Source: a virus. From it: 49,906 nt of DNA. A program made the translations under genes and the position numbers. Under the pieces are notes generated by a model. It was not told the DNA's origin. It made no database searches and saw only the letters and a list, made by a program, of their open reading frames with translations. Position 1 is the first letter of the stretch. Every line of letters begins with the position of its first letter. Below are positions 12,693-38,006 of this stretch, piece by piece. The stretch spans positions 1 to 49,906 of the IMG/VR virus record IMGVR_UViG_3300025120_014439. The stretch is one strand, 5' to 3'.

Positions 12693-12720
12693 ATTATAAC
12701 ATGTATTTAGACTTTGTCAA
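12693..12720 (-). promoter_or_regulatory. Sigma70-type promoter at QueE start
   Basis: TTGACA (12715-12720), 16 bases, TATAAT (12693-12698), directly followed by the annotated ATG; 6 bases after the -10 is an in-frame GTG. The -35 lies in the preceding gene's last codons, so part of the match may be coding coincidence. Confidence 0.5.
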
Positions 12721-21141: not shown

Positions 21142-21165
21142 ACTGTGTATCTCCTAAGTTGTTTT

Positions 21166-21194
21166 ATTATAGAATTATTTAGAGCTAAAGTCAA
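21166..21194 (-). promoter_or_regulatory. 45: Sigma70-type promoter for the sliding clamp
   Basis: TTGACT (21189-21194), exactly 17 bases, TATAAT (21166-21171), then a leader with AGGAG. The -35 lies in the 3' end of the upstream methyltransferase-like gene. Confidence 0.75.
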
Positions 21195-24683: not shown

Positions 24684-24934
24684 TAGGCTTTCTTTGCAAC
24701 AGCTAGAAGTTCTTCTAGTTCCTCAATGTCATGTTTTTCAGCAGCCAATGATTCCTTGAATGCTACTGCAATTGCTTTTGACAACAGTGCTGGTTTGATG
24801 TCCAATTCTTCTGCTACTGCTTTGACTGTGTCTCTCAAACCTTCTGATAAATCTTTTACTTCTTGCTTAACTTTGATGCCACTCTCAATGACGTGTTTTA
24901 TTTTTGCTTGTTCTTCTGTGTTCAATGTTTTCAT
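24683..24934 (-). CDS. DsbA-like small DNA-binding protein
   Basis: This 83-residue helical protein resembles the T4 DsbA group, which binds double-stranded DNA and helps late transcription. It has KIKHVIESGIKVKQEVKDL, then TVKAVAEELDIKPALLSKAI, where the ELxIKPxxLxKAI segment could form a helix-turn-helix. I base this on recall of equivalent proteins in marine T4-like phages; identity to T4 DsbA itself would be low. A Shine-Dalgarno AAGGAG and a sigma70 promoter precede it, and it is coupled to the polymerase. Confidence 0.65.
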   Translation of the reverse strand: MKTLNTEEQAKIKHVIESGIKVKQEVKDLSEGLRDTVKAVAEELDIKPALLSKAIAVAFKESLAAEKHDIEELEELLAVAKKA

Positions 24935-24953
24935 AAGAATACTCCTTGAACTT

Positions 24954-24982
24954 ATTATAAAACAAAATATTACTTTTGTCTA
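24954..24982 (-). promoter_or_regulatory. Sigma70-type promoter for the DsbA-like/polymerase genes
   Basis: TAGACA (24977-24982), exactly 17 bases, TATAAT (24954-24959), followed by a leader with AAGGAG before the ATG at 24934. Confidence 0.7.
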
Positions 24983-25143
24983 TTGTTTTGTTTGGGTAAT
25001 TTTGTAATGATGTCGAAATATCTTTTAGCTGGATTGGTTTTGTTGAGTGCTATGCCTCTGGATCCAGGAGAAGTTGGATCTTTAATTTGTCTGTTGAGAT
25101 CTATACCAAGTTCAATCAGTTTCATCTGTTGCCTCACTGACAT
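24970..25143 (-). CDS. Small basic phage protein
   Basis: I start this 57-residue protein at MSVRQQMKLIELG (25143); longer versions lie in the frame-shifted 3' end of the upstream gene. It contains PTSPGSRGIALN and NPAKRYFDIITKLPK, a pattern I associate with a small conserved T4-like phage protein. It overlaps the preceding gene by 32 bases. Function unknown. Confidence 0.6.
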   Translation of the reverse strand: MSVRQQMKLIELGIDLNRQIKDPTSPGSRGIALNKTNPAKRYFDIITKLPKQNNRQK

Positions 25144-25846
25144 CAGATGGACTTTTGACATGCACAGGGCCAATGTCATGGCTGTCATCGTCGTCTACAT
25201 TGAACTGTTCTGGTTTGTCTTGTTCCCACTGTGTAAAGTATGAATCATCTGTGATGGTGTCTTCTCTTGTGTTTTCAACTGTGTAAAAATTTTGATCAAT
25301 GAGATATCCTGGATTTTTGGTTAATCGCTCTTCCATGAAAGCATCATCATACCAAATTGTTCTGTTGTTTGGATATGCAAAGAATGTACCTTCATCCATT
25401 CTAAACATGTGAGCACACTTGTGTTCTGGATCTTCTGAGAAGTTTGTGTCCAGCATGCCTGCTTTGTCTTCCCAACCAAAATCAATTGTGAACATGTATG
25501 TTCCTTTTCTTTTGGTACCATGCCAATCAATCAGTTCCGCACGACAGTTTGCTAGTCTGTTTCTTCTCTGCACACTGATGTATGAACTGAAGCAGTCCCA
25601 ATACATGTGAATATTCAATGGGTGTTTTGGCGCATCCTTTTTCCAAACAAATGCATTGATAGGACGTCTGGTCCAGTTTACTCCATTTGGCAGTAGACAT
25701 TCGAACAGTATTGCTCTACGCTCCATGCAGTTTGTGGTGTGAATATCGCAAAATGTGAAATCGCCATGTCCTTTAGTGTGGTTGAAAAGATATTCATTTC
25801 TTATGTAAGCACTGAATGGCGGAATGTTATGATTGAGATATGCCAT
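25112..25846 (-). CDS. Conserved T4-like phage protein, function unknown
   Basis: This 244-residue protein begins MAYLNHNIPPFSAYIRNEYL, recognisable from marine T4-like phages. The body is rich in aromatic residues and charged turns (HMYWDCFSSYISVQRRNRL, YMFTIDFGWEDKAGM), and the last 35 residues are very acidic (NVDDDDSHDIGP). No catalytic motif is visible. It starts directly after the 25847 gene ends, and precedes the replication genes. Confidence 0.8.
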   Translation of the reverse strand: MAYLNHNIPPFSAYIRNEYLFNHTKGHGDFTFCDIHTTNCMERRAILFECLLPNGVNWTRRPINAFVWKKDAPKHPLNIHMYWDCFSSYISVQRRNRLANCRAELIDWHGTKRKGTYMFTIDFGWEDKAGMLDTNFSEDPEHKCAHMFRMDEGTFFAYPNNRTIWYDDAFMEERLTKNPGYLIDQNFYTVENTREDTITDDSYFTQWEQDKPEQFNVDDDDSHDIGPVHVKSPSDVSEATDETD

Positions 25847-26278
25847 CTACCAGTTCCTGCACGACCAATATCTTGCTTTGGTCTTTGGGCCTGGGTTGTC
25901 ACAGTTGTGTCTTGCTCTGAATGATTTACGTCTGGCAGGATTTGATTTTCTTATTCTCATGGTTGGTCTTTTGGCAGATGTGCCACCATGTCCAAAGTTT
26001 ACTTTTTTGATGTTGCCTGTTTTGGGATCTTTGACATATACTTTAAATTTTTTGACATCACCACGTGTGGGTTTGTTAAGTTTTACTTTTCTGCCTCTGT
26101 ACTCAGCTTCAAGTGCATTGATCAATTTGCCACCTATTTCGTCTGTGTATACAAGTATATTATCTTCATGCACTTCGATGATAGGTGCATCAATGGCCAA
26201 TGTTTCATCGAATTCAAATGTCAACACATCGCCTGCTTGTGGATTTTGAATGTGATGTTTTAGTTCTTCAAAGTTCAT
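25847..26278 (-). CDS. Conserved basic phage protein with N-terminal M-x-[LIF]-x-[ED]-[LIFV] motif
   Basis: This 143-residue protein starts MNFEELKHH, one of twelve in this region with the shared start motif. The middle is a beta-rich domain, and the C-terminal 60 residues are very basic with a conserved-looking KRPTMRIRKSNPARRKSFRA and a terminal DNPGPKTKARYWSCRNW, where a Cys pair may bind metal. I have seen similar endings in marine T4-like phages. A late-type AATAAATA lies 16 bases before the ATG (26295-26302), inside the ACP gene. It may be a virion internal protein; this is inference. Confidence 0.75.
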   Translation of the reverse strand: MNFEELKHHIQNPQAGDVLTFEFDETLAIDAPIIEVHEDNILVYTDEIGGKLINALEAEYRGRKVKLNKPTRGDVKKFKVYVKDPKTGNIKKVNFGHGGTSAKRPTMRIRKSNPARRKSFRARHNCDNPGPKTKARYWSCRNW

Positions 26279-26499
26279 TGTTTGGCCTCAACTATATTTA
26301 TTACATCTTGAATTGTGACTATGTTATCCACTTCACTGTCATCAATTGTGATGTCAAGTTTCTTTTCTAGTTCCATTACAATTTCTACTGCTGTGAGGCT
26401 GTCTGCTCCTAGGTCATCAATTAATCTTGCTGTCGGCACTAATTTAGATTCATCGTCTGTTAATATTTCTTTGATAATTTGATAAACTACTTCACTCAT
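26275..26499 (-). CDS. acpP: Acyl carrier protein
   Basis: This 74-residue acidic protein is a clear acyl carrier protein. The phosphopantetheine site is Ser34 in LGADSLTAVEIVMELEKKL, and helix spacing matches AcpP throughout. Host ACP carries growing acyl chains; a phage copy needs a host phosphopantetheinyl transferase, as none is visible here. It is coupled by 4-base overlaps on both sides, between two basic late proteins, with no fatty-acid gene nearby. It could modify lipid synthesis or donate acyl groups, for example to a lipidated phage product, but neither is shown. Confidence 0.93.
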   Translation of the reverse strand: MSEVVYQIIKEILTDDESKLVPTARLIDDLGADSLTAVEIVMELEKKLDITIDDSEVDNIVTIQDVINIVEAKQ

Positions 26500-27029
26500 T
26501 TTTTATACTTATTGCTTACGTTTTTAGCTTTGCCTTTTCTATCTGGGTTTTTGTCTTTTCTACGTTTTCTATTGACTGCTTGAGCTATTGCTTTTTTACC
26601 GCCTTTAGCTCTTAGACTTGCCGCTCTGGCTTTTGATAGGCACTTGGGTTTGCCTTCTCCAGGTTTTTTGTCACCGCATTTGCCAATGCGTTCACCTTTG
26701 GTGTTGTAACGATCCCATCCGCCACCACCTGCTCCACCTTTTTTGCCTTTGCCAAACCATGCTCTGAGTCCTGCATGACTTGACTCATCTAAATCATGGT
26801 GTTCACAAGAATCAAGTAAATGATAATTTTTTTTGAAGTAAGCAACTGCTTGTTGTTCGTTGTCAAATAATTTTACAGGTTGATTGAATTTGTCTACAAC
26901 AAGATATCTGTCTTCACGTTTGACACAGTTGGGCACACGTTTGCCAAACATGGTTTTGAAGCCTTTGCGTTCATAGCCTTTCCAACAGCGTGTGCCTTCT
27001 TCAATTTCAATTAGTTCTAGAAGACGCAT
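26496..27029 (-). CDS. Basic phage protein (DUF5872-like C-terminus) with N-terminal motif
   Basis: I start this 177-residue protein at MRLLELIEIEEGTR (27029); the upstream extension lies in the previous gene. After the shared start motif comes a small domain (RCWKGYERKGFKTMFGKRVP) common in marine phage proteins, then a glycine-rich linker and a strongly basic C-terminus with GKCGDKKPGEGKPKCLSKAR, which I recall as the DUF5872-type motif. The net positive charge suggests DNA binding inside the capsid. Its ATG overlaps the upstream stop (TAATG). Confidence 0.78.
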   Translation of the reverse strand: MRLLELIEIEEGTRCWKGYERKGFKTMFGKRVPNCVKREDRYLVVDKFNQPVKLFDNEQQAVAYFKKNYHLLDSCEHHDLDESSHAGLRAWFGKGKKGGAGGGGWDRYNTKGERIGKCGDKKPGEGKPKCLSKARAASLRAKGGKKAIAQAVNRKRRKDKNPDRKGKAKNVSNKYKK

Positions 27030-27796
27030 TACTTTTTGCTCTTGTTGCCCCAATTGGCTGCGCCTACTTTGCGGCACTGCACAAGAGCACCAGAAGCGTA
27101 AGCCGACGGCCATACTTTGTATCTTGATTTTACTTTGTGATAGCAGGCATCTTTCTTTTCTGCCAATGCTTCAAATTCTTCTTCTGTGATAGGAGCATTT
27201 TCTTCAACTGTTTGGGATTGCTCTTTAATTTTCTTTTCTAGGATGCTCATGAATTCTAATGTTTGTGCATACATTTGTTCGAGCGTGTGTTCTTGGCCAT
27301 CTGATGTTTTAAACTTGGTTCCTGGCTTGGCTCCTTGTGCTTTGAGTTGTTGCACTTTTTGTGCAAACTCGTTGCCATCCATCAAGTCACTGATGTCTTT
27401 GTAAGCAGAACTGTTTACCTTGTCCCATATTTTTGCTTTGCCTTCACCATGTTTTTTGACAAAGTCATCTTTGCTCATCTTCATGGCATCATCTTCCAAG
27501 TCCATGAGATAGTCTTTTACAGCACCTTCTACTATGTCGCCTTGGCCTTCATTTGCATCCACAGCATCTTTGGCTACTGCTTTATCCTGTTCGCCCATTA
27601 AAACTTTGACTAGGTTGGAATTTGCAAATGATTCAGATTTTTGACACAGCGATTCTAAATACGAACGTGGCATCATACCTTGAGATCTTGCTTGATCAGC
27701 AATCATCTTTTCAAAGTCTAATAATTTAGATTTGGCTGACTGTTTCTGTAGCTGTTCTTGTTTGGCTTGTTCAAATATTGTTTTTAAAATGCTCAT
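27029..27796 (-). CDS. Late phage protein with basic Cys-containing C-terminus
   Basis: This 255-residue protein starts MSILKTIFEQAKQE, similar to but not exactly the shared start motif. Residues 10-200 are mostly helical and charged, possibly coiled coil. The C-terminal 43 residues include a motif frequent in marine T4-like phages: DACYHKVKSRYKVWPSAYAS followed by ALVQCRKVGAANWG, with two cysteines and many basic residues. A late-type element AATAAATA lies 7 bases before the ATG. It is probably a virion or prohead protein. Confidence 0.75.
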   Translation of the reverse strand: MSILKTIFEQAKQEQLQKQSAKSKLLDFEKMIADQARSQGMMPRSYLESLCQKSESFANSNLVKVLMGEQDKAVAKDAVDANEGQGDIVEGAVKDYLMDLEDDAMKMSKDDFVKKHGEGKAKIWDKVNSSAYKDISDLMDGNEFAQKVQQLKAQGAKPGTKFKTSDGQEHTLEQMYAQTLEFMSILEKKIKEQSQTVEENAPITEEEFEALAEKKDACYHKVKSRYKVWPSAYASGALVQCRKVGAANWGNKSKK

Positions 27797-27802
27797 GATA
27801 CA

Positions 27803-28024
27803 TTATTTATTTGCAATTTCAATCAACCCATGCCAAGATTTGACTAGAGTGCCGTTGGCAGTGATGTCGCTGTCGCCTACATTTTCTATGGTTATTGTGT
27901 TGTCAGTGGTGTTAGTGTAAGGTACAACTACGCAATTTGGCCAGGCCAGTGTCTGATCTAGAAAGAGTTCATCATTGATGTACAGTCTTATGGTGGGGTT
28001 GTGATCACTGTGGATCGCAATCAT
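27803..28024 (-). CDS. Small beta-rich phage protein
   Basis: This 73-residue protein contains PTIRLYINDELFLDQTL and DNTITIENVG, alternating strands like a small carbohydrate-binding or jelly-roll domain. A related strand pattern (HPLFVKLLVNDRVLNF) occurs in the 148-residue protein at 37560-38006, suggesting the two are paralogous or share a fold. It overlaps the upstream gene by 4 bases (ATGA). Function unknown. Confidence 0.65.
   Translation of the reverse strand: MIAIHSDHNPTIRLYINDELFLDQTLAWPNCVVVPYTNTTDNTITIENVGDSDITANGTLVKSWHGLIEIANK
27804..27811 (-). promoter_or_regulatory. Late-type promoter element
   Basis: AATAAATA, 7 bases before the ATG at 27796; it lies in the last codons of the 27803-28024 gene. 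Confidence 0.5.
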
Positions 28025-28257
28025 CTTTTCAAAGGAGCACCAAATATAGACACATTCATATCAAGAGCATTGTCAGTTGGTTTTTGCTTTTTTGCTTTTT
28101 TGTGCTTTGGTGATTTTGTTCCTGATTTTCCAGGGGATCCTGTGTATGATTTTTTGAATCTGTCTGGATTTGCAATGTGCGGATTTGCCACTGAAGCAAT
28201 GTTGCCTGCGGATGTAGCACCTGCTGTTGCTTGTTCCAGTATGTCTTGTATTTTCAT
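28021..28257 (-). CDS. Small basic late protein with N-terminal motif
   Basis: This 78-residue protein begins MKIQDILEQATAGATSAGNI; ILE then a small-residue run resembles a T4 prohead-protease site ([LI]-x-E). The rest is basic (PGKSGTKSPKHKKAKKQKP) and ends DNALDMNVSIFGAPLKR. I recall close relatives in marine T4-like phages. A late-type AATAAATA sits exactly 5 bases before the ATG. Confidence 0.75.
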   Translation of the reverse strand: MKIQDILEQATAGATSAGNIASVANPHIANPDRFKKSYTGSPGKSGTKSPKHKKAKKQKPTDNALDMNVSIFGAPLKR

Positions 28258-28262
28258 GCTAA

Positions 28263-28270
28263 TATTTATT
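28263..28270 (-). promoter_or_regulatory. Late-type promoter placing +1 at the ATG
   Basis: AATAAATA, then TTAGC and the ATG at 28257. The 5-base gap puts the expected T4-type +1 on the start codon. Confidence 0.65.
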
Positions 28271-29069
28271 TGGAAAATCTATGAGCGTTTTTGATTATGC
28301 CGGGTAATAAAAACAATGCGTTAGCAACAAAATCCAGATATTCCAGTTCATTAACAATTTTCTTTGATCCAAGAAATCTGTCACTTGGCACAGTTATTGT
28401 TGCGTTGTTAAATTTTGTAAACTCAAATACATCTTTTTTAACATCAAAATGCATGTCACTAAAAATGTTTAATCTCGGAAAGTCCATGACGAGATCATTT
28501 CTGTAGAAGCATGCTGTGCCAGGTTTAAATTTTGCAATCCAATGAGCAGATATAGGGATGTACTTTCGATTGTCAATAGCATTATGCCAATACCAATAGC
28601 CAAGTCCACTTCTTTGTCTATCAGTATGATCGTGATCTGGCAATCTTTGAAGATTGGATGTAAATTTTAATATTGAACGGTTGTATGATAGTATTTTCTT
28701 TTTGCGGAAAAACTGTTGTGTCATGTGTGATCCAAACCAACTGCCATTGTAATGAATTTTGTTCAGCATGTCAGGCTCAGGCTGATCTGCGGACTTTGGC
28801 AGCAATAAAAAATTTTTAAGACACAAGTTAGTGCCATGTTTTCTTGTAACTCCTATGCAAAAAAAATAAAAACTATTGGAATCTGCAGAAGTAAATTCAA
28901 ATTGTATGTCATCCTGATACTCCAGCGGCACTCTGACTTGCGTGATAGATGATGTGCATTGAACCTCATTGATTATTTTGTTATGATGAAAAACTCTGAG
29001 ATGACTTTGATTGCTAGTTTTGGTAAACACAATAACAAAGGATAGATCCCATATGCCTGGTTGCGCCAT
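28266..29069 (-). CDS. Hypothetical protein, AT-rich
   Basis: This 267-residue protein has no recognised domain. It is rich in aromatic and charged residues (QQFFRKKKILSYNRSILKF, GYWYWHNAIDNRKYIPI) with many predicted strands in the first 90 residues, and no signal peptide or membrane segment. Its base composition is more AT-rich than the basic proteins on either side, so it may be a transferred accessory gene. The 3' end reaches to within 9 bases of the next ATG. Confidence 0.65.
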   Translation of the reverse strand: MAQPGIWDLSFVIVFTKTSNQSHLRVFHHNKIINEVQCTSSITQVRVPLEYQDDIQFEFTSADSNSFYFFCIGVTRKHGTNLCLKNFLLLPKSADQPEPDMLNKIHYNGSWFGSHMTQQFFRKKKILSYNRSILKFTSNLQRLPDHDHTDRQRSGLGYWYWHNAIDNRKYIPISAHWIAKFKPGTACFYRNDLVMDFPRLNIFSDMHFDVKKDVFEFTKFNNATITVPSDRFLGSKKIVNELEYLDFVANALFLLPGIIKNAHRFSK

Positions 29070-29070
29070 G

Positions 29071-29397
29071 TTACTTTTTTTTGCGGCCGGATTTCATGTT
29101 GGCGCACCAATGATACATTCTACCACGCTCGCCTCCATATTTTCTTGCTTTGGCTCTCAGTGATGCCACTGATCCTTTGCATGATGCACCTGAACGTTTG
29201 ACTCTACCAGGACGTGATTTGCCTTTGCGTTTTTTGTCAGCAAAGTTGTCTTTGATCAAAACTTGATTGCCTTCGCCTCTGCGTGGATCTTTGTTGATCG
29301 GTTCATAGAATATTTTGCCACCCTTGCGGACTTTCTTTAATCCTAAAGGCTTTGCTGTGTGATGCATGGGCATACCTATGATTTCTTCGATGTTCAT
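29071..29397 (-). CDS. Small very basic phage protein with N-terminal motif
   Basis: This 108-residue protein begins MNIEEIIGMPMHH, fitting the shared start motif, and is one of the most basic proteins in the window. The C-terminal half includes RKGKSRPGRVKRSGASCKGS and RMYHWCANMKSGRKKK, with two cysteines. Small, basic and co-located with similar genes, it is a candidate DNA-binding internal protein. It overlaps the upstream gene by 4 bases (ATGA). Confidence 0.75.
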   Translation of the reverse strand: MNIEEIIGMPMHHTAKPLGLKKVRKGGKIFYEPINKDPRRGEGNQVLIKDNFADKKRKGKSRPGRVKRSGASCKGSVASLRAKARKYGGERGRMYHWCANMKSGRKKK

Positions 29398-29723
29398 TTT
29401 TTGTTTTTGGCCTTTGTTTTCTTTTTCATTGTGTTAATGTATTTTCTATAGACAGCCGCCGGGCCTGCTTTGCCCGCCGCTTTGGCTCTCTGCTCCATGG
29501 CAACTGCAGCCTGTATTTTGTGTGCGTGAGATCTTCCAGACTTGCGTATTTTAGATACACTTGATCTTGCTGTGCTTTCATCTTTGAAGCCTAGGCCGTG
29601 TATGGTGCCTTTGGGGTCTTCATCTGTGTATAGGTCAGAATGTTTTTTGCTTTTCCGCTTTTGTCCTTTTTTGCGTGGTATTCTTTTGTGTTTGCTTTCT
29701 GCAAGTATTTCAAACAGTCTCAT
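29394..29723 (-). CDS. Small very basic phage protein with N-terminal motif
   Basis: This 109-residue protein begins MRLFEILAESKHKRIPRKKG; LAE followed by Ser looks like a [LI]-x-E protease site. The remainder is Lys/Arg-rich with KGTIHGLGFKDESTARSSVS and HAHKIQAAVAMEQRAKAAGK, a motif I have seen repeatedly in marine T4-like phages. It overlaps the SGNH gene by 14 bases and the following gene by 4. Confidence 0.78.
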   Translation of the reverse strand: MRLFEILAESKHKRIPRKKGQKRKSKKHSDLYTDEDPKGTIHGLGFKDESTARSSVSKIRKSGRSHAHKIQAAVAMEQRAKAAGKAGPAAVYRKYINTMKKKTKAKNKK

Positions 29724-30447
29724 TATTTTTTCCTCGATTTACGAATGGCATAATAACTTGCTCTGTAAATTCTTTGTGCCCTAGTGTGCTTGGATGAAGA
29801 TCACCTGGTTTTTCAAATCCTTGTTGGCCTACGTTTTTGTCGACCCAATCGGCCATTCCGTCAATTGGTAAAAAAAAATTCCAGTCTATTTGGTCATACA
29901 AATATTTACAGTCTTCTAAATAGCAGTCTTCATCATCGGTATAAGGTTCTAAAACATCGGCCATATATGTGCTCATGAAATATGGTATTTTGTGTTGTTT
30001 TAAAAACCATTGTGTCCTTAAAATATGTTCGAGGGTGTAGATGACTTGACCAATGGCATCATGAAACATGCCGTAATATGATTTAGCAAATTGGTTTTGC
30101 CAATTTCCATTCAAGATTACCCAATTTTTTGTATCAGTAAATCCTGTTGGGTTTTCTTCCCAGCCATCTATGTTTTCACTAATTCCGCTGTCTCGTAGAT
30201 AAAAGTCATGCCGATCAATGCCGCTCCACAATATACCTACAAATAACTCTGAATCTTTGTGCGTTGTGCATGCATGTATTATGCTCCTGCTTATAAGGCC
30301 GTTGCCTTGGCTGCACATTCCTTTACTGACGTGTGTGTGCTGTGGCATTCTTTCTGCAAGGTGACTGGGCCATGTATCGATGTAAGGATTGAGTTCAGAA
30401 AAACTGCATCCACCAGTGATCAAAATTTTTTCTTTTGAATCGGTCAT
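29710..30447 (-). CDS. SGNH-hydrolase-like protein (1 of 3)
   Basis: I start this 245-residue protein at MTDSKEKILITGG (30447), which has AGGAAG upstream and overlaps the preceding stop (ATGA). The block I nucleophile region is GGCSFSELNPY, where the classical GDS is GCS, the Ser still in place. The block V catalytic pair lies in GDLHPSTLGHKEF. This family includes esterases, lipases and sugar deacetylases. A role in deacetylating surface glycan, or in virion decoration, is plausible but not shown. Confidence 0.7.
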   Translation of the reverse strand: MTDSKEKILITGGCSFSELNPYIDTWPSHLAERMPQHTHVSKGMCSQGNGLISRSIIHACTTHKDSELFVGILWSGIDRHDFYLRDSGISENIDGWEENPTGFTDTKNWVILNGNWQNQFAKSYYGMFHDAIGQVIYTLEHILRTQWFLKQHKIPYFMSTYMADVLEPYTDDEDCYLEDCKYLYDQIDWNFFLPIDGMADWVDKNVGQQGFEKPGDLHPSTLGHKEFTEQVIMPFVNRGKNNETV

Positions 30448-30644
30448 TGTTTCTTCCTGCTTCTGAAACCTGCTCCAGTCATGTATGGACGTGAGAACCA
30501 CAGTTTGAACCATTCCTCTGAACCTGGTTCGATTTTATTTTTACGTTGGATGCGTGCTTTTTCAGTGCCTGTGATGGAAATATTTTCTTTGGGTTGGTCA
30601 AATGATCCAATTCCGGCCAGAGTTTTAAGTTCTTGTAATGTCAT
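30444..30644 (-). CDS. Small phage protein with N-terminal motif
   Basis: This 66-residue protein begins MTLQELKTLAGIG, matching the shared start motif. Its C-terminal half has IEPGSEEWFKLWFSRPYMTG, a segment I recognise from small conserved proteins of marine T4-like phages. An ATTAAATA late-type element lies 11 bases before the ATG, inside the upstream gene (30656-30663). It overlaps SGNH-like genes on both sides. Function unknown. Confidence 0.72.
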   Translation of the reverse strand: MTLQELKTLAGIGSFDQPKENISITGTEKARIQRKNKIEPGSEEWFKLWFSRPYMTGAGFRSRKKQ

Positions 30645-31281
30645 TGTCTTGCATATATTTAATCAATTCATTGGACCATACTTGATGTCCTTGTGTGGTG
30701 GGATGATAGTCTGTTGCACTGACATACAATTTATTGTCCTGACAGTGTTGGAAATGACTGTATGTAGGATGATAGAAATAATCTGTGTCCACACAGTTCC
30801 ATAGTGTTCTGCTGTCTGCTGAATCTGTAATGATATTATTGAGTCCAAAATACATCACATACTTGATATTGTTGGCTTTGAAATATGTTTGCAGATCAAG
30901 GATGTTGTTGAGCATGGCAATGGATTCATGTTCTACATCATCAAATCCTGGCATCACATGCAACACATCTCTGGTGTGATATGTCCTCCATGTACTGCTG
31001 TGCCCTTGCATGGGTTTGTAATTGTCTTTGGTCACATAGTCAATACGGCCGGCCTGTGTCCATTCAATCAGTGCAATGGTGTTTTGTTTGTGTTGGGTAA
31101 AACGTTCAAAGTGTAATTTGGTTGTGACAACAATTCTGTCATTGCCTCTACCACCACGTGCAAGATTGTGCAACTCAAGGTCAAAATGCTGGGCAACCAT
31201 TTGGCCTGCAAACACAGAGACTTTGCCTTTGGGGTTGGGTGTGTTGAACGAACAGCCGTTGACTAAAAGATGTTGGTACAT
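30625..31281 (-). CDS. SGNH-hydrolase-like protein (2 of 3)
   Basis: I start this 218-residue protein at ATG 31281; the codon before is TTG. Block I is LVNGCSFNTPN (GCS in place of GDS), the glycine block is NLARGGRGNDRIV, and block V is TDYHPTTQGHQVW with the Asp-x2-His pair. It is a paralogue-like relative of the 29710-30447 protein. A late-type AATAAATT sits exactly 5 bases before the ATG. Function is probably hydrolysis of an ester or acetyl group on a glycan, by family analogy only. Confidence 0.7.
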   Translation of the reverse strand: MYQHLLVNGCSFNTPNPKGKVSVFAGQMVAQHFDLELHNLARGGRGNDRIVVTTKLHFERFTQHKQNTIALIEWTQAGRIDYVTKDNYKPMQGHSSTWRTYHTRDVLHVMPGFDDVEHESIAMLNNILDLQTYFKANNIKYVMYFGLNNIITDSADSRTLWNCVDTDYFYHPTYSHFQHCQDNKLYVSATDYHPTTQGHQVWSNELIKYMQDNDITRT

Positions 31282-31286
31282 CAAGT

Positions 31287-31294
31287 AATTTATT
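31287..31294 (-). promoter_or_regulatory. Late-type promoter placing +1 at the ATG
   Basis: AATAAATT, then ACTTG and the ATG at 31281; it differs from the consensus at the first and last base. Confidence 0.55.
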
Positions 31295-31427
31295 TAGATT
31301 TTTTGCGCCTACCAGCACAATGGGCTCGTTGTGAAAAGCCTTTGGGGTTGGAACAGTTGATTGATTTTTTGTATTTTTTGCTCCACTTCTCCAACAGTTC
31401 AACTGTGTAGAGTTCGTGGAGTTTCAT
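31290..31427 (-). CDS. 45-residue basic phage protein with N-terminal motif
   Basis: This short gene encodes a protein starting MKLHELYTVELLEKW and ending with KKSINCSNPKGFSQRAHCAG plus a basic tail. The CSNPKGFSQxAHC segment is one I recall in small proteins of marine T4-like phages, and its two cysteines and His may bind zinc. The ATG overlaps the stop of the previous gene by one base (TAATG). A 73-codon frame on the same strand at 31181-31402 is a shadow. Confidence 0.8.
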   Translation of the reverse strand: MKLHELYTVELLEKWSKKYKKSINCSNPKGFSQRAHCAGRRKKSK

Positions 31428-31588
31428 TATTCTGCCTGTGGTTGTTCTGGCTCTTGAGTAACTTCTTGTGGTTCTAACTTGTTGAATTCGTCACGTGACT
31501 GTTGCACCACCATGTTGTGAAATGTTTCTTTAGCTTTGTCTTCATCACCAGCCACCAGCTGGTCTAATATTGTATCTAAGTCGCTCAC
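31427..31588 (-). CDS. 53-residue acidic protein, prohead core (gp67)-like, GTG start
   Basis: This small gene starts with GTG overlapping the previous TAG by one base, and ends one base into the next ATG. The protein begins MSDLDTILDQLVAGDEDKAK followed by ETFHNMVVQQSRDEF, with an acidic Gln/Glu-rich tail. The pattern of a short helix, GD, then KA-x-E-x-F helix resembles T4 gp67 and similar small prohead core proteins. Its position beside a 494-residue acidic protein fits a prohead core role. Confidence 0.65.
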   Translation of the reverse strand: MSDLDTILDQLVAGDEDKAKETFHNMVVQQSRDEFNKLEPQEVTQEPEQPQAE

Positions 31589-31893
31589 TATTTCACCTGG
31601 TCTATCTTAAGTGTAAGGTTATAAGTTCTGCCTTTGTATTGGTACTCTAAGTCAGATGAATTAATGTGTGCAGATGCTGACTCCACTGTGCAACCAAGTT
31701 CATTAAGTCCCTTTTCCATCACTTCTGTAATGTGTGACACGTGTGTCTGTGTTTCTTCTGCGAGTCTTGTGAACTCGTCATTTTGATTTGCAAGAGCATC
31801 CATTATTTTTCCATATTCTTCTGCATCACTTTTTAATGATAATGCATCAATGGATTCTGAAAGTTTTCTTAGTTCTGCGCCTTCTTTACTCAT
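31588..31893 (-). CDS. Small helical phage protein
   Basis: I start this 101-residue protein at MSKEGAELRKL (31893), since upstream codons lie within the preceding gene. It is mostly helical (SIDALSLKSDAEEYGKIMDAL) with a short strand-rich end (LEYQYKGRTYNLTLKID). No domain is recognised. The 8-base overlap with the 494-residue gene and the one-base overlap with the gp67-like gene suggest it belongs to the prohead or virion set. Confidence 0.65.
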   Translation of the reverse strand: MSKEGAELRKLSESIDALSLKSDAEEYGKIMDALANQNDEFTRLAEETQTHVSHITEVMEKGLNELGCTVESASAHINSSDLEYQYKGRTYNLTLKIDQVK

Positions 31894-33370
31894 TTCTATA
31901 CATTTCACAACCGCCAAATTCAGTTGTTACTTCTCCAAACATTTGTTCTCCTAAATCTTCATACATTGCTTTAATTGAATCAACGGCTACTGGGTAGTCT
32001 TCAAAAAAGTTTGGTCCATTAAGATTTAGAACATTAAGTTTATGATTTACTGGACGAGTTCCGTTCCCGTCTTGTGAAAGATATGGTACATCTCCTGATC
32101 CGATCTGACCAACAATTTTGCCTTCTCTGACAAGATATGCAACTCTAAAAGATGTAGTGTCACCTTCCCATGCTCCATCTTCTGCAACCAGTCCTGCTTC
32201 GGGCTTTGTAACCACTTCTGCAATTACAAAATTAGAACCGTCATACAGTGATTCGTCAGCAACTATTCTTGCTGATGATGTAAGGTTAAGTGCATCCTGT
32301 GCACCACCTACTAACATTAGTTCATACTGTTTGTTTAATTCAGCAATCAATGAATCTGTATCTATATCTGAATTTTCTGATTTCTTTTTTTCTTTGTCTT
32401 TGAGTGCTTTCTTCATTGGCTCTTTTTTATCGCCATCTTTGTCAAAGTCAAGATAATCTGGCTTGCCATGTTTGGCTTCATCAACTTCTGTTTCAACTTC
32501 TTCACTTTCAGGAAGTGGATTGTCGCCTCTTGATGCCGCTGAAGGTCCCATGTCTTTGTTGGGCACTACATTTCTTTTGAGTTCGTAATCGTCTTTGTCT
32601 AAAAACTTTTCATTTGGTTCGTTGTCGTATGCTTCTGCTTCTGGCTCAGGTGCATCCATTTCTGGTGCATCAGGTGTCATGTCCATTGCAGGTGCATCCA
32701 TTGAGGGTTTGTTTTGGATATTCATCTGTTGTGGATCAAGTCCTGCATTCTTTAAAATAGCCATAAGAGCAATTTGATCTTCCAGTGTGTCTGTTTGAAT
32801 ACTGATGCCCTCACTCAGTTTCTGTTTTTTGTTGTCGTTCATTGTTGATTCTCCCATGGATTGTGTGTCATCCTTCATTGCCATTTTTGTTGCTGTGGCA
32901 TACATCACTGCATCAGCATCTTTACCGTATCGTTTTTTGAAACCAGCTTTGTCTGATTTCATTGACTTTACAATTTTTTCTCTTTTGTCCATTTCACCTT
33001 TGGACATTGATCTGCCTGTGGTGCTGTGTTCGCCACCATGCTTTTCCTCTAGATCATCTTCCATTGGTTCGTCAGGTGTTGGATTTTGCAAATAATTTTT
33101 TACTGATGTTAATTTGTCAGCTGCAACAGCAATCTTGTTGGTTAACCATGTGTCCAGACTTTCTCCACCTGGTCTGTCTTTGAACATTTGATACAGCGCC
33201 ATAGCATCTTTGGCTATCTGTGCTGTCTTAGCCTGCATAGAATCTGTGTCTGTGTGACCATCTTCTGTTTGCTGATTCAAGTATTCTTGGTATGTTTTTG
33301 GCTCTTCTACTAGGTTAATAGCATTCATAGCCTGCTTCATGTATTCAACTGCATTCCTATCTACTGACAT
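31886..33370 (-). CDS. Large acidic multi-segment late protein
   Basis: This 494-residue protein combines several segments that recur in marine T4-like phages. Residues 125-170 have KREKIVKSMKSDKAGFKKRY and DAVMYATATKMA; residues 215-260 are Asp/Pro/Met-rich low complexity; near residue 310 is KHGKPDYLDFDKDGDKKEPM, a calcium-loop-like segment; and the C-terminal 140 residues form a beta-rich domain. It is strongly acidic overall. A late-type AATAAATA lies exactly 5 bases before the ATG. It may be a prohead core or internal virion protein. Confidence 0.72.
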   Translation of the reverse strand: MSVDRNAVEYMKQAMNAINLVEEPKTYQEYLNQQTEDGHTDTDSMQAKTAQIAKDAMALYQMFKDRPGGESLDTWLTNKIAVAADKLTSVKNYLQNPTPDEPMEDDLEEKHGGEHSTTGRSMSKGEMDKREKIVKSMKSDKAGFKKRYGKDADAVMYATATKMAMKDDTQSMGESTMNDNKKQKLSEGISIQTDTLEDQIALMAILKNAGLDPQQMNIQNKPSMDAPAMDMTPDAPEMDAPEPEAEAYDNEPNEKFLDKDDYELKRNVVPNKDMGPSAASRGDNPLPESEEVETEVDEAKHGKPDYLDFDKDGDKKEPMKKALKDKEKKKSENSDIDTDSLIAELNKQYELMLVGGAQDALNLTSSARIVADESLYDGSNFVIAEVVTKPEAGLVAEDGAWEGDTTSFRVAYLVREGKIVGQIGSGDVPYLSQDGNGTRPVNHKLNVLNLNGPNFFEDYPVAVDSIKAMYEDLGEQMFGEVTTEFGGCEMYRNE

Positions 33371-33375
33371 AGTGA

Positions 33376-33383
33376 TATTTATT
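33376..33383 (-). promoter_or_regulatory. Late-type promoter placing +1 at the ATG
   Basis: AATAAATA, then TCACT and the ATG at 33370. Confidence 0.65.
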
Positions 33384-33387
33384 ACGG

Positions 33388-34458
33388 CTATATTGCTTTA
33401 ACGCCAATCTGTGGATATGGATTCATCTTAGGATCTGCTGTGGCAACAGGATATGCAGTTGCAACACTCACTCCCATGCCACTGCCTTTTAGATCTTTGG
33501 TGTTTTGTATGTATGTGTATGTTTTGTTGGCTAAATTAGCAAAAATAATTCCATCTAATTGACCTTGTGATCTTTTGTAGCCAAGATAATAGTTAATATT
33601 AATCTTTCCGTATAGGTCTCTTGCTGTGTTTACATCACCTTTTGCAAGTGCTTTTGTGATAGCATCAGTGCCTTTGACACCAGGAAATATATTTTTTAGA
33701 ATTGTGTTGACATCTTGTTCGATGTTTGCATTGTTTGTAAATTGAATCAAACTTGACAGTTGTGAAAGATTAAGTCCTTGTTTGCTGGGTTGAAACCCTT
33801 TTTTTGCCATGGCTTGTAAATCTTTTGAATATTTTTGCATGAACTTTGTTACCAATTGATCATAGTTTGCTGTGACAGTGACCTGTCTATCATACATTCT
33901 TGCATCTTTGACATTCCGTGTTTTGAGTTCAACAGGCTTTTTTCCAATGATAAGATCACCTTTTTCCTTGCCAGAACCTACACCTGTGATGCCTTTGCTG
34001 AGACATGCCAGTGCAAATTCACCAGGGCCAATGCCTTGGCCTATAACATCTTGGAAGTCATCCACAAGTTCCGTCATTGCAGGGTCTTTTCCATAACCTG
34101 CAAACACATCTGCAAATGAATGCGTGCCGCCTGAAGTCAAAAGGTTTTTGTTTACAATTTTGTCTGCATTCCACAATTTAAACAGTTGTTGTCTGCCTTG
34201 TGAAGAAAAATCCACTGTGGAAATAATTTTTGCAATTTTTCTCACTGCTTTCTTGACATCGTTGTCATCAATCTCTTGCACACGATTCAGCAGTGATGCT
34301 ACTCTGCCGCCTACGCCAACATCAGTCAACAACTGTGTGAAACGATCAATTAATTTTTGTGTGTCTGGATCTTTTTCTGGCAGGGATTGCAGTTTCTGAA
34401 TGAGTTCACGTTTTTGCAGCTGCACTGCTTCGGGTTTTTTAAGTTCGAATAATCTCAC
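33388..34458 (-). CDS. PD-(D/E)XK-type nuclease with N-terminal motif
   Basis: This 356-residue protein begins MRLFELKKPEAVQLQ, matching the shared start motif. The middle has a restriction-endonuclease-like site: Glu147 in GPGEFALACL, Asp168 in KEKGDLIIG and Glu177-x-Lys179 in KPVELKT, the classical E...D-x8-E-x-K order. Before it is a helical region (about 10-100), after it another helical domain and a C-terminal beta segment. A nuclease carried in the virion could attack host DNA or process the genome on entry; a DNA-metabolism role in the cell is equally possible. It overlaps the upstream small gene by 4 bases. Confidence 0.75.
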   Translation of the reverse strand: MRLFELKKPEAVQLQKRELIQKLQSLPEKDPDTQKLIDRFTQLLTDVGVGGRVASLLNRVQEIDDNDVKKAVRKIAKIISTVDFSSQGRQQLFKLWNADKIVNKNLLTSGGTHSFADVFAGYGKDPAMTELVDDFQDVIGQGIGPGEFALACLSKGITGVGSGKEKGDLIIGKKPVELKTRNVKDARMYDRQVTVTANYDQLVTKFMQKYSKDLQAMAKKGFQPSKQGLNLSQLSSLIQFTNNANIEQDVNTILKNIFPGVKGTDAITKALAKGDVNTARDLYGKININYYLGYKRSQGQLDGIIFANLANKTYTYIQNTKDLKGSGMGVSVATAYPVATADPKMNPYPQIGVKAI

Positions 34459-34580
34459 TTCTTAAGTCCTTTGCTGGGATCATGCACTAATTTTACTTTG
34501 CCGTTTTTAGTCTTTACCCTGTAAGGATAACGCAGAGTTGTGTTACTGTAACCCATTTTGGCGAATTCTTGTAGTCGCAT
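34455..34580 (-). CDS. 41-residue protein with N-terminal motif
   Basis: I start at MRLQEFAKMGYSNT (34580); a longer frame to 34745 is frame-shifted overlap with the upstream gene. After the shared start motif the protein is short and basic, ending YRVKTKNGKVKLVHDPSKGL. An ATTAAATA late-type element sits exactly 5 bases before this ATG, supporting the start. It runs into the nuclease gene with a 4-base overlap. Confidence 0.75.
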   Translation of the reverse strand: MRLQEFAKMGYSNTTLRYPYRVKTKNGKVKLVHDPSKGLKK

Positions 34581-34585
34581 GTGTG

Positions 34586-34593
34586 TATTTAAT
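34586..34593 (-). promoter_or_regulatory. Late-type promoter placing +1 at the ATG
   Basis: ATTAAATA, then CACAC and the ATG at 34580; it overlaps the last codons of the upstream gene. Confidence 0.6.
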
Positions 34594-34858
34594 AGAATTG
34601 TTGAGGTACTTCTGGTCCATCTGATGACATAGACATATCCCAAGCACCGCAACCTATTTGTTGCAGGGTTTGTTGAGGATAAGCTACCTGCACAGTCATC
34701 CACATCAGAGTATAGAATTCCTGAATCTGCATGGCATCCTGGCATTCTTCCAACGTATCAAAGATCATCTTTTCATATCTTGGGTGTACAGTGTTGCCCT
34801 GTGTGTCTAACATCATAGCAGTCACCATGTAGACAATCAAAGTAATTTTTGTAATCAA
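34589..34858 (-). CDS. Small protein with N-terminal hydrophobic segment
   Basis: This 89-residue protein begins MITKITLIVYMVTAMMLDTQ, a hydrophobic stretch that could be a signal or membrane anchor, followed by a charged soluble part with two cysteines (LEECQDAM, QIGCGAW). A secreted or membrane-attached small protein is likely. It overlaps the upstream gene by 4 bases (ATGA). Function unknown; a lysis-related or superinfection role is only a guess. Confidence 0.65.
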   Translation of the reverse strand: MITKITLIVYMVTAMMLDTQGNTVHPRYEKMIFDTLEECQDAMQIQEFYTLMWMTVQVAYPQQTLQQIGCGAWDMSMSSDGPEVPQQFY

Positions 34859-35334
34859 TTGGCACCCACGTGTGTGGCACCCATGCGTTTGCCATCACGT
34901 GCTATCTTGTTCATACGCATGATGACATCATTGAAGTAACCTTCACGCTTGCCACCTGATATTGTAGTAATCTTGTTTGGTTGATCGTCAACTTCTGCAT
35001 CTTGTGCTTGAGACGGTTTGCCTATGTTTTTCTGCAACCATTGAGTTGCTCTTGCAATAAATTCATCTATGGGCACACTGCCATCGTATACATCATATCC
35101 CAACACATCAAACACTTCTCCTGCGTTGGCATTTGATAAGTTTAGGTCATGTTCTGGATTGTAGTCTGGATTTGTAAAATCTTTTGGATCGCCTGCAAAG
35201 TCTGTCTTGTACACTTCGTCTTTGTATCGATCTGCATCCCCAGTTACCATGCTGAAATAGTTCTCGCCTGGATTTTTTTTGTATGCATGAAAACTCATAC
35301 CTTCGTTAATTTGTTTGAATTCGTGTAATCTCAT
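34855..35334 (-). CDS. Late phage protein with N-terminal motif
   Basis: This 159-residue protein begins MRLHEFKQINEGMSFHAYKK; INE followed by Gly would suit a [LI]-x-E processing site. The middle is acidic with an Asn/Asp-rich region (NPEHDLNLSNANAGEVFDVL), and the C-terminus is basic. No domain is recognised. A full consensus TATAAATA lies 7 bases before the ATG. It overlaps the SGNH-like gene upstream by 4 bases. Confidence 0.72.
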   Translation of the reverse strand: MRLHEFKQINEGMSFHAYKKNPGENYFSMVTGDADRYKDEVYKTDFAGDPKDFTNPDYNPEHDLNLSNANAGEVFDVLGYDVYDGSVPIDEFIARATQWLQKNIGKPSQAQDAEVDDQPNKITTISGGKREGYFNDVIMRMNKIARDGKRMGATHVGAN

Positions 35335-36086
35335 ATAAAATTATTTATAAATCGGCTGAATGCTTGTCCCCAGATCTCATGCACCTCTTTAGTGTAGTGC
35401 CCTGTGCTTGTGGTTACATTATGTGTAAAACTTTCACCGAACTCCTGCATACTTTTATTATCAATTGAAAAATAGTTTGTAATATCAATAAGTTTTTCTA
35501 GCTGCGAAATTTGCCAATTCACATAAGGATTCTCAGATCTTTCTTGTCCCATACTAAAAGGCTTGACAGCACACCAAAAGAATTTGCAATCAATTGAATT
35601 GCATAAATTTTGGATAGCAATAATATTTTTCAGTAGATTGATATGATTGCTCACGTCAGATTCCTGCATGAAATACATTTTATGGAATTGCTCAAACAAT
35701 TCTTTATTATCTTTGACAACTTCCTGTCTCATCTGATTTTCTAGTGGATTATTTGACAGTGAAACTATGTTGTTGGGACTAAAAGAATAACCATAATCTT
35801 TGTAAGAATAATCTCTCCTATTAGGCAGAGAAAACATAACTGCTACTACTTTTATATTATTATTCCAATGCTCATATATACATTGGGTTATGTCTCCATT
35901 TGAGCAACCTGGATGCGATATATTGTTAAATTCATTCGAATGCCAAATATAATTAGGCCATGTGGTTGATGCAGGCGGATTTCTAAAAGGATCTAATTGA
36001 GTGTTTTGATGGCCCACGCCATAAGTGTAACTGTCTCCAGCAACAAGCACTGGTTTAGTTTCATCAAACCATTTTTTATAAAACAT
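35331..36086 (-). CDS. SGNH-hydrolase-like protein (3 of 3), AT-rich
   Basis: This 251-residue protein has block I as LVAGDSYTYGVG (true GDS with Ser in place), a glycine/asparagine block HPGCSNGDITQCI, and a C-terminal His region TSTGHYTKEVHEIWG. It is more divergent than the other two SGNH-like proteins and noticeably AT-rich, suggesting a separate origin. An AATAAATT late-like element lies 8 bases before the ATG (36095-36102). Predicted to act on a glycan ester or acetyl group by family analogy. Confidence 0.68.
   Translation of the reverse strand: MFYKKWFDETKPVLVAGDSYTYGVGHQNTQLDPFRNPPASTTWPNYIWHSNEFNNISHPGCSNGDITQCIYEHWNNNIKVVAVMFSLPNRRDYSYKDYGYSFSPNNIVSLSNNPLENQMRQEVVKDNKELFEQFHKMYFMQESDVSNHINLLKNIIAIQNLCNSIDCKFFWCAVKPFSMGQERSENPYVNWQISQLEKLIDITNYFSIDNKSMQEFGESFTHNVTTSTGHYTKEVHEIWGQAFSRFINNFI
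35342..35349 (-). promoter_or_regulatory. Late promoter, full consensus
   Basis: TATAAATA on the minus strand, 7 bases before the ATG at 35334, inside the end of the SGNH-like gene. Confidence 0.65.
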
Positions 36087-36092
36087 GCAAAA

Positions 36093-36644
36093 TTAATTTA
36101 TTGTTGTTTGGCTAATATTTTTTTTTATTTGATTGATAGTGTTACCAACTGATCCGTTTGTATGCTGTATGCCAATGCCGCCTGCAGACTGCCACTTCTT
36201 GATGTTGTAGCCAAAGTCATCAATTAGTACGTTGGGTGTGCCATCTGCTTGTTTGGCATAGAGGCCTTTGTCGCCAGTGGCTGGCATAATAATAACTTCA
36301 TTTGGTTGTGGTTGTAAATTGTTCTGTACCCATTGTTTTTTCTGAGCAACTACACGTTTATCACCAGCAAGTGCTTTGGAAAGTATTTTGTATTCGCCAT
36401 TGAACAGTGTTTTAATTGCAGACATTATAGAAGGTACATCCGACAGCACATCAAGGTCAATCCAAAAATCATTACGTTTGGTGATGTCTCTTAACACTTT
36501 GCTAACTGTGTCTTTGGATGCATCCTTCCATGATGCAACTCCAGCCATTTGGTTGAATGGGCCATAGAAATCTGCCAACACGCCATCCATGTCTACATAT
36601 AATATAGGTGATTTAACCGTGGTTTCTAGTTCATACAGTATCAT
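36093..36644 (-). CDS. HAD-family 5'(3')-nucleotidase-like protein with N-terminal motif
   Basis: This 183-residue protein begins MILYELETTVKS, fitting the shared start motif, then the HAD nucleophile motif LYVDMDGVLADFYG (Asp-x-Asp). Later motifs are present: YKILSKAL for motif II, a lysine in the DKRVVAQKKQW region, and LIDDFGYNIKKWQ for motif IV. Deoxyribonucleotidases of this type dephosphorylate dNMPs. It overlaps the nucleotidyltransferase gene upstream by 4 bases, an unusual pairing. Confidence 0.85.
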   Translation of the reverse strand: MILYELETTVKSPILYVDMDGVLADFYGPFNQMAGVASWKDASKDTVSKVLRDITKRNDFWIDLDVLSDVPSIMSAIKTLFNGEYKILSKALAGDKRVVAQKKQWVQNNLQPQPNEVIIMPATGDKGLYAKQADGTPNVLIDDFGYNIKKWQSAGGIGIQHTNGSVGNTINQIKKNISQTTIN

Positions 36645-37300
36645 TTTAGATGCAGTGCTTTCATTATCTTGCCCAATGTCTTTTTGTTGACATCTTTGGT
36701 GGTATTTTGTTTGGTCACAATACCAACGCCAGCTGCTTCTTCAACACCCATGGATTTTCTTACAGCATCATAAATTTTCTTTTTGAGATCTTGTGTGCCT
36801 GCAAACATTGTGGCAAAGCCTTCAAAGTCTCCTTGCACTGCGGCTTCACGTGCTTTGGATGCTGATACTCCTTCAAGTGAGTCAGCATCTGGATCACGCA
36901 GTCCTGCTGATACAACATTTATTGCGTCAAATGAATATTCCTTGCCATTGTATTTGTTTAATAGATCTTCAAATGCAGTGACTCTATCACTGCCTGCTAC
37001 CATGGTTACATTTTTATGTCCTGCTGTTTCAAGAAATTTCATCACATCAATAATAGTTTTGATATTTGGATCACTTATCACATGGTCAGCCATTTGCGGA
37101 AATTGTGCTGACATCATAGAAACTTTTTGATTCCATGTTAATGGATTTTTCTTTTTGTCCTGGGTGTGGCTTACAAATACAAAATGCACAGGCGACAGCG
37201 ATTCTAGTTTTTGGAATAATTTGAAATGGCCTATGGTTGGAGGATTAAATCTCCCAAACACAAATGCCGCTGTGTTATTTTCTACTTCTGTGAGCTTCAT
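36641..37300 (-). CDS. Nucleotidyltransferase (NMNAT/cytidylyltransferase-like) with N-terminal motif
   Basis: This 219-residue protein begins MKLTEVENN and continues into the nucleotidylyltransferase fold: FVFGRFNPPTIGHFKLF with the G-x-F-x-P-P-T-x-G-H motif, VAGSDRVTAFEDLL, and the second motif GVSASKAREAA, matching ISxTxxR. The C-terminal 40 residues form an extra helical tail. NMNAT-type enzymes make NAD or couple a nucleotide to a phosphorylated substrate; in T4-like phages relatives act in NAD salvage. The exact substrate is uncertain. The 5' end overlaps the upstream gene by 26 bases. Confidence 0.85.
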   Translation of the reverse strand: MKLTEVENNTAAFVFGRFNPPTIGHFKLFQKLESLSPVHFVFVSHTQDKKKNPLTWNQKVSMMSAQFPQMADHVISDPNIKTIIDVMKFLETAGHKNVTMVAGSDRVTAFEDLLNKYNGKEYSFDAINVVSAGLRDPDADSLEGVSASKAREAAVQGDFEGFATMFAGTQDLKKKIYDAVRKSMGVEEAAGVGIVTKQNTTKDVNKKTLGKIMKALHLK

Positions 37301-37547
37301 CGTCGATCATTTCTTGATATACATTTACAGCAACTTGTTTTTTGACTTCTGGTGTAATGCTAGGATACGGAACATTGTTTGCTTTGGAAAACTTCATACA
37401 CACGTTGTCTACTAGTTCCATCACTCTGTTTGTGTCTTTGGGGTTTCTACGCATGTGCTGTTGACATGGTATAAAATGACGTCTGTACATGTCGTCATCA
37501 TTGAAAAGATGTTGTGTGACAGATGTGCTTAAGGATTCATCGTACAT
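37275..37547 (-). CDS. Conserved small phage protein
   Basis: This 90-residue protein begins MYDESLSTSVTQHLFN and has HFIPCQQHMRRNPKDTN, then helices ending VAVNVYQEMIDDE. No domain recognised. A late-type AATAAATA lies 6 bases before the ATG. The gene overlaps the nucleotidyltransferase start by 26 bases. Likely a late gene of unknown function. Confidence 0.65.
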   Translation of the reverse strand: MYDESLSTSVTQHLFNDDDMYRRHFIPCQQHMRRNPKDTNRVMELVDNVCMKFSKANNVPYPSITPEVKKQVAVNVYQEMIDDEAHRSRK

Positions 37548-37553
37548 AGCAAA

Positions 37554-37561
37554 TATTTATT
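37554..37561 (-). promoter_or_regulatory. Late-type promoter element
   Basis: AATAAATA with a 6-base gap to the ATG at 37547, close to the 5-base spacing seen elsewhere; it overlaps the end of the upstream gene. Confidence 0.6.
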
Positions 37562-38006
37562 AGAATACTAGTCCAAGTAACCAATTGTAAATTGGCACTT
37601 TGAATGGTATAGTCAATGTGCCGTTGTATCCAAAATTGGCTGTTTTTGTAAGAATATTTTGATCATTTGAAACAAACACTCCAAAATTTGTTTCATTTTT
37701 TAACATGTTGAGCACACTAATATTGTCAAATTGCAAATCCGTGATTTCAATAAAAGAGTCTTGTATAATTTTACCTTGTTGATCAATTGATGTGTTTTGG
37801 TCATTTTTACCTGTAATTTGTATTTTAAGTTCATGCAATTCATTGTCAAGGTTTAATTTTTTTTCTATATTTTTATTTGGTTCTCCTGAAATGTCGAAAT
37901 TTAGCACTCTGTCATTTACTAACAATTTAACAAACAAAGGATGGTCAATCCAAATATGATTGTAGTTTAGTTTGATTTTGACTTCATTGCTTGTAAACAA
38001 ATTCAT
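37560..38006 (-). CDS. Hypothetical beta-rich protein, AT-rich
   Basis: This 148-residue protein consists mainly of predicted beta strands (VKIKLNYNHIWIDHPLFVKL, GYNGTLTIPFKVPIYNWLL). Its strand pattern resembles the small protein at 27803-28024, so both may share a carbohydrate-binding-like fold. Very AT-rich codon use. It overlaps the following small gene by 23 bases. Function unknown. Confidence 0.6.
   Translation of the reverse strand: MNLFTSNEVKIKLNYNHIWIDHPLFVKLLVNDRVLNFDISGEPNKNIEKKLNLDNELHELKIQITGKNDQNTSIDQQGKIIQDSFIEITDLQFDNISVLNMLKNETNFGVFVSNDQNILTKTANFGYNGTLTIPFKVPIYNWLLGLVF

Follow-up and report, generated by a model that had tools for sequence, protein, structure and literature searches.

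A probable capsid-targeting sequence at the N-termini of otherwise unrelated proteins in an uncultured T4-like virus

N-terminal signals that lead proteins into phage heads have been described in T4 and P1. In T4, gp21 cleaves internal proteins after [LI]xE-type motifs, and targeting of the internal protein IPIII depends on residues 4 and 7, its processing on residues 8 and 10; aspartate at position 10 blocks processing but targeting is kept (PMC9026906). In P1, the first 30 residues of DarB send a reporter into the head (PMC9024508), and this phage seems to have no separate scaffold. In SPN3US/phiKZ-type phages, the prohead protease removes N-terminal propeptides from internal proteins that are ejected, with serine favoured at P1'. 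Here we describe a short N-terminal motif, M-x-[LIF]-x-[ED]-[LIFV], referred to below as the tag, which opens twelve genes of an uncultured virus of bacteria (IMG/VR record IMGVR_UViG_3300025120_014439; the 49,906 bases analysed are called the window). Judging from sequence, we regard it with good confidence as a variant form of the N-terminal capsid-targeting sequence on T4 internal proteins, by which about ten otherwise unrelated proteins are very probably sent into the virus head.

The tag resembles the signals of T4 IPI-IPIII and Alt in its N-terminal place, its length of about 10 residues, the hydrophobic-x-acidic-hydrophobic spacing, the [LI]xE behind it and its carriers, which are basic cargo and enzymes. 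It differs in having one residue fewer before the first hydrophobic one, in an almost fixed acid, in many more carrier families and in several carriers without a cut site. The DarB signal is likewise N-terminal and is compared here by its function. The SPN3US/phiKZ-type propeptides differ in size (mostly 111-254 residues), motif and phage lineage. We found no description of a capsid-targeting sequence on cargo of cyanophages or other marine phages; most subscription papers lay outside this search, so that novelty is unproven.

A common gene start and its excess over chance

The DNA polymerase of the window is T4-like, and its nearest relatives, at no more than about 45% identity, are in jumbo phages, among them Atu_ph07 and 121Q; megablast of window positions 20,000-38,000 against phage records gave no match. 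The twelve genes lie in an island (25,847-37,300) with 22 genes inside and 57 outside. All twelve starts reported in the initial annotation are indeed present as minus-strand open reading frames (ORFs), some after a choice of start: MRLFELKK (33388-34458) has a GTG start, and MRLLEL begins at a downstream ATG (27029) of a longer ORF. In the following list, which ends with a possible thirteenth member, a slash marks a possible cut.

36641..37300 (-): cytidylyltransferase/NMNAT-like nucleotidyltransferase, MKLTEV, 219 residues (PF01467, phrog_3041/395); 20 of 29 clustered relatives tagged
36093..36644 (-): 5'-deoxynucleotidase-like HAD protein, MILYEL, 183 residues (PF06941, phrog_2643); 11 of 14 clustered relatives tagged
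34855..35334 (-): acidic protein, MRLHEF, possible cut INE/G; relatives begin MRYNEI, MKASDF and MKAQEF, tag-like in 4/5 by a loose pattern and 1/5 by a strict one
34455..34580 (-): basic 41-residue protein, MRLQEF; tagged orthologues in contigs G001 (93% identity) and L003
33388..34458 (-): putative PD-(D/E)xK nuclease, MRLFEL, GTG start, 356 residues; 3/3 clustered relatives tagged
31290..31427 (-): basic 45-residue protein, MKLHEL, possible cut LLE/K ahead of a WSKKYK module
30444..30644 (-): 66-residue protein, MTLQEL, weak member; 12 of a family of 21 match
29394..29723 (-): basic protein, MRLFEI, possible cut LAE/S ahead of a RIPRKKGQ module; 4/4 relatives carry both the tag and a site-like motif
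29071..29397 (-): basic protein, MNIEEI, with an MPHTAKP module; 8/9 clustered relatives tagged, linker variable
28021..28257 (-): 78-residue protein, MKIQDI, with a gp23-like string after ILE/; 9/10 relatives tagged
26496..27029 (-): basic protein, MRLLEL, with a CWKGY module, possible cut IEE/G; matches S-CREM2 gp160 and S-SCSM1 ORF29
25847..26278 (-): basic protein, MNFEEL, with an EYRGRKV module, weak member; untagged relatives share residues 57-143 only
24970..25125 (-): possible thirteenth, MKLIEL (MKLIELGIDL), 51 residues, an open frame with a Shine-Dalgarno-like site; no relative was found

The motif opens 12 of the 22 island genes and one of the 57 other genes of the window (Fisher p = 1.4e-7). 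The clustering noticed in the initial annotation thus stands, with the exception that MKLIEL at 24970-25125 lies outside, where no such start had been seen. Its remark that several of the proteins are very basic was borne out in 10 of the 12 (isoelectric point (pI) 9.1-10.8), the exceptions being 34855 (pI 5.0) and 36093 (7.8).

For comparison, we took the window together with 80 related contigs, each with a relative of the nucleotidyltransferase, which gave 1,041 distinct genes after removal of duplicates; gene starts in unannotated contigs were called with our own gene caller. The motif opens 131 of these genes, as against 42 of 5,206 internal methionines (odds ratio 17.7). This rate is not genome-wide, because the sampled loci surround the island; over the whole length of five contigs of 104-187 kb (G001, G003, G004, G005, G007) the motif opens 30 of 757 genes, with about 6 expected. 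A common start of this kind could come from translation initiation or composition, with A/T-rich early codons giving M-K-I-x-E-I and no signal at the protein level, and it is general knowledge that K and I codons are frequent early in A/T-rich phage genes. This explanation is highly improbable: shuffling of residues 2-21 predicts only 8.4 +/- 3.0 motif starts, other N-terminal offsets yield 3-16, there is no excess in S-PM2, HTVC008M and the part of Melnitz that was analysed, and the genes of the same window outside the island scarcely carry it.

The tag behaves as a movable element. Clustering of protein bodies at 60% coverage, after removal of the first 15 residues, gave 52 families with a tagged member and 24 with two or more, although these 24 are not all fully independent because some share modules. 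(Single-linkage clustering was dropped in favour of the coverage threshold, since shuffled modules collapsed into one cluster.) Inside families the tag stays, and the linker behind it varies in length and sequence, as in the nucleotidase relatives MILYELETTVKSPILYVDMDG, MLLFEIDSTKPILYVDLDG and MRILELDSNIDKYNKKLYNEDMETKPIVYLDMDG, and in MPHTAKP proteins that begin with MKLMELIGKP and MKIRDIVERNRV. The nucleotidyltransferases carry MKLTEVEN, MRLLEILEKD, MLLKELFEAP or MRIDEVVNN, and untagged ones of other contigs begin almost at the GRxNPPT segment. Both very short tagged genes, MRLQEF and MKLHEL, have orthologues, and in all orthologues support the tag on nine or ten of the twelve window proteins.

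Cleavage-type sites and the major capsid protein

A prohead-protease-type site often follows the tag. The initial annotation had noted [LI]-x-E soon after the motif in some of the proteins, which is the case in five of the window's twelve; family-wide, [LIF]xE with E at residues 7-13 is found in 58 of 122 tagged proteins, and shuffling of residues 7-20 gives 15.3 +/- 3.5 such sites (maximum 30 in 1,000 shuffles). The E is mostly residue 8 or 9, and the next residue is A, G or S in 32 sites. Free-standing relatives of the 45-residue protein at 31290 consist of the tag, [IV]xE and WSKKYK.

The 78-residue tagged protein (28021-28257) starts with MKIQDILE/QATAGATSAGNIASV, and tagged relatives have YLAE/TATAGATSAGNIATLNRV at the place where their gp23 is presumed to be cut. 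In a profile comparison the two align at [LI]xE over 20 columns (probability 95, E 2.5e-8). The gp21 protease and gp23 capsid protein are encoded in 6 of 10 related contigs, not in the window fragment; the portal-to-capsid head module was not found within the 49,906 bases. T4 gp61.1 (NC_000866 18966-19130) aligns likewise with T4 gp23 57-93, across residue 65/66, the known cut site of gp23. A similar 52-residue protein is encoded in CBB at 213937-214095, near virion proteins detected by mass spectrometry (MS), one of which starts MRFSQITE/D; tblastn of the 78-residue protein against phage records gave nothing at E 1, though CBB contains the shared string. In three T4-like lineages (T4, the window, CBB), small proteins carry a copy of the N-terminus that the major capsid protein of the same phage presumably has when mature.

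Basic modules of the tagged proteins also recur inside longer proteins. [LIV]xE stands ahead of 16 of 17 internal copies of the EYRGRKV module (27% at random positions) and of 6/6 copies of the ATSAG module, four of which are gp23 itself, but of only 2 of 11 copies of the CWKGY module. Tentatively, the prohead may be filled with shuffled basic modules and multi-module proteins cut up inside the head, with the gp23-arm module perhaps docking cargo on the inner shell.

Virion-detected homologues and the place of the tag

T4 IPII and IPIII start with MKTYQEFIAE. When one residue is dropped, MRLFEILAE/S of the window aligns with MKTYQEFIAE/A in the hydrophobic, acidic and cut positions. The hydrophobic residues are at 3 and 6 in the window-type tag as against 4 and 7 in T4 IPIII, and cyanophage homologues use 4 and 7. 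The tag would work like the T4 sequence; with its key residues shifted by one, it is a candidate member of the T4 type.

From T4 we derived the pattern x2-[FYLI]-x2-[FIL]-[ILMFV]-x-E after the first M. In T4 itself it picks IPII, IPIII, gp24, Alt and gp61.1. In S-CREM2 it picks 5 of 219 genes: gp6 (S-adenosylmethionine (SAM) hydrolase), gp13, gp14 (kinase), gp136 and gp154 (cytidylyltransferase). Each of these belongs to the 52 of 219 proteins detected in virions (PMC10665884 Table 3; hypergeometric p = 6.5e-4), in a comparison that is not fully blind because the N-termini had been seen before the pattern was written. In S-SCSM1 the pattern finds ORF91, a virion-detected nucleotidyltransferase, and ORF30, which is not flagged as virion. 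The nucleotidyltransferase of S-SM1 was also detected in virions (PMC3037559). These MS-detected cyanophage enzymes thus carry T4-type tags: MKNFSSFLTE, MKSFLQFLKE (S-SCSM1) and MKKFSAFLNE (S-SM1). Homologues of 36641-37300 have been detected in virions of S-CREM2, S-SCSM1, S-SM1 and S-SZBM1, and were published as detected, without a targeting sequence being reported.

Twelve window genes have homologues in S-CREM2 or S-SCSM1. Those of the island (26496, 27029, 31886 and 36641) match virion proteins in 4/4 cases, and those elsewhere in 0/8 (Fisher p = 0.002). Two of the four are tagged, namely the nucleotidyltransferase, with homologues in several cyanophages, and 26496-27029.

The Cas9-like virion protein gp12 of S-CREM2 has a tag-like LRFASFMAE/A at residues 17-25. 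A start at an internal TTG was rejected, as the codon reads CTG; from its sequence, the N-terminus up to LRFASFMAE could be a longer propeptide.

For the phage of the window we infer the following course. Over its first 6-9 residues a tagged protein probably folds into a short amphipathic helix with hydrophobic residues at i, i+3 and often i+4 and an acidic one at i+2. This helix would bind the scaffold core while the prohead assembles, so that the carriers, small basic proteins and a few enzymes, would be trapped inside when the shell closes. A gp21-type protease would then cut many of them at [LIF]-x-E just past the tag and release them within the head, and the released proteins would be ejected into the host together with the DNA.

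Alternatively, the helix may dock on another partner, such as a tail or neck part, a GroEL-like chaperone, the polymerase or the membrane, the proteins acting jointly and not as head cargo. Detection of homologues in virions leaves their place within the virion unspecified, and a title cited in PMC10052503 has proteins guided to GroEL by the N-terminus of the T4 head protein. We nevertheless find docking elsewhere unlikely, as the similarly built T4 tags are head signals (PMC9026906), both the cleavage-type site and the gp23 string suggest action of the prohead protease, and in the head module of relatives the gene next to the portal gene, at the prohead-core position, is a tagged one.

Several observations weigh against capsid targeting. 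M-x-[LIF]-x-[ED]-[LIFV] shows no enrichment in the virion set of S-CREM2 (1 of 4 matches in virions); the virion evidence comes from homologues in other phages, those of the nucleotidyltransferase carrying the longer T4-type tag; and virion-detected enzymes could be co-purified, as the cyanophage virion papers remark. The late promoters named in the initial annotation exist in part, with ATAAATA at <=60 bp from 3 of 13 tagged starts, but are not enriched there (7 of 66 untagged starts, p = 0.36). No good cleavage site is found in 7 of the 12 window proteins, although carriers without a site may still be cargo because aspartate at IPIII position 10 spares targeting. Finally, 25847 and 30444 have no orthologue backing and may be chance matches. 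The proposal that all twelve are packaged is therefore kept for its core, in view of the shared tag, the T4-like build, the protease-type site and the virion homologues, and weakened on these counts. It is in fact rather likely that only some of the twelve are cargo, with a real tag on the conserved families and several others matching fortuitously or through some feature of their family: the 30444 family conserves LKxLAG and not the tag, the relatives of 25847 are untagged, and 24970 has no relative. Such a limited set is compatible with capsid targeting of the orthologue-backed proteins and not opposed to it.

If capsid targeting is right, the tag lets the virus inject enzymes and DNA-binding proteins along with its DNA. 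Unknown proteins of aquatic T4-like phages could then be screened by a sequence rule for those that are carried in the virion and reach the host first. The nucleotidyltransferases, kinase and SAM hydrolase detected in cyanophage virions would have a proposed targeting signal, and phages beyond T4 would gain candidate delivery tags.

Individual proteins and neighbouring genes

The nuclease that the initial annotation counted among the cargo is a putative one. GD-x8-E-x-K is invariant in four sequences of 33388-34458, but Pfam and PDB sequence searches were without match, and the AlphaFold model, with a predicted local distance difference test (pLDDT) score of 43, was not used for a fold search. 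A PDB sequence search with the window nucleotidyltransferase and PADLOC on six island proteins also gave no match.

Three untagged genes of the island resemble head or virion genes of other phages:

31427..31588 (-): untagged 53-residue protein, similar to the one that relatives encode where gp67 (prohead core) would stand; local alignment gives scores of 72-78, the next protein reaching 53
31886..33370 (-): untagged virion-protein homologue; S-CREM2 gp111 and S-SCSM1 ORF92, both virion-detected
27029..27796 (-): untagged virion-protein homologue; S-CREM2 gp160 and S-SCSM1 ORF29, both virion-detected

The untagged island proteins 29710-30447, 30625-31281 and 35331-36086 start alike (ITGGCSFS, LLVNGCSFN, VLVAGDSYT), and one matches DUF6071; by eye, they are perhaps SGNH-type hydrolases. 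Between two island genes, 26275-26499 encodes an acyl-carrier-type protein with a phosphopantetheine site. Among relatives, other tagged or tag-like proteins are a zeta-toxin-like P-loop kinase, a peptidoglycan-binding protein and a DUF6267 protein (L061:13314-13922, L017:4652-5572, L021:8919-10004).

As for the promoter element, ATAAATA lies 10-16 bases upstream of several window starts, often at about 12-15 (9 of 10 genes with ATAAATA), a spacing that suggests late promoters with very short leaders. Elsewhere in the window, 11790-15967 holds a run of GTP cyclohydrolase I, IMPDH/GMP reductase, phosphoribosyltransferase, iron-sulfur protein and DegT-type genes, possibly for nucleotide or base modification.

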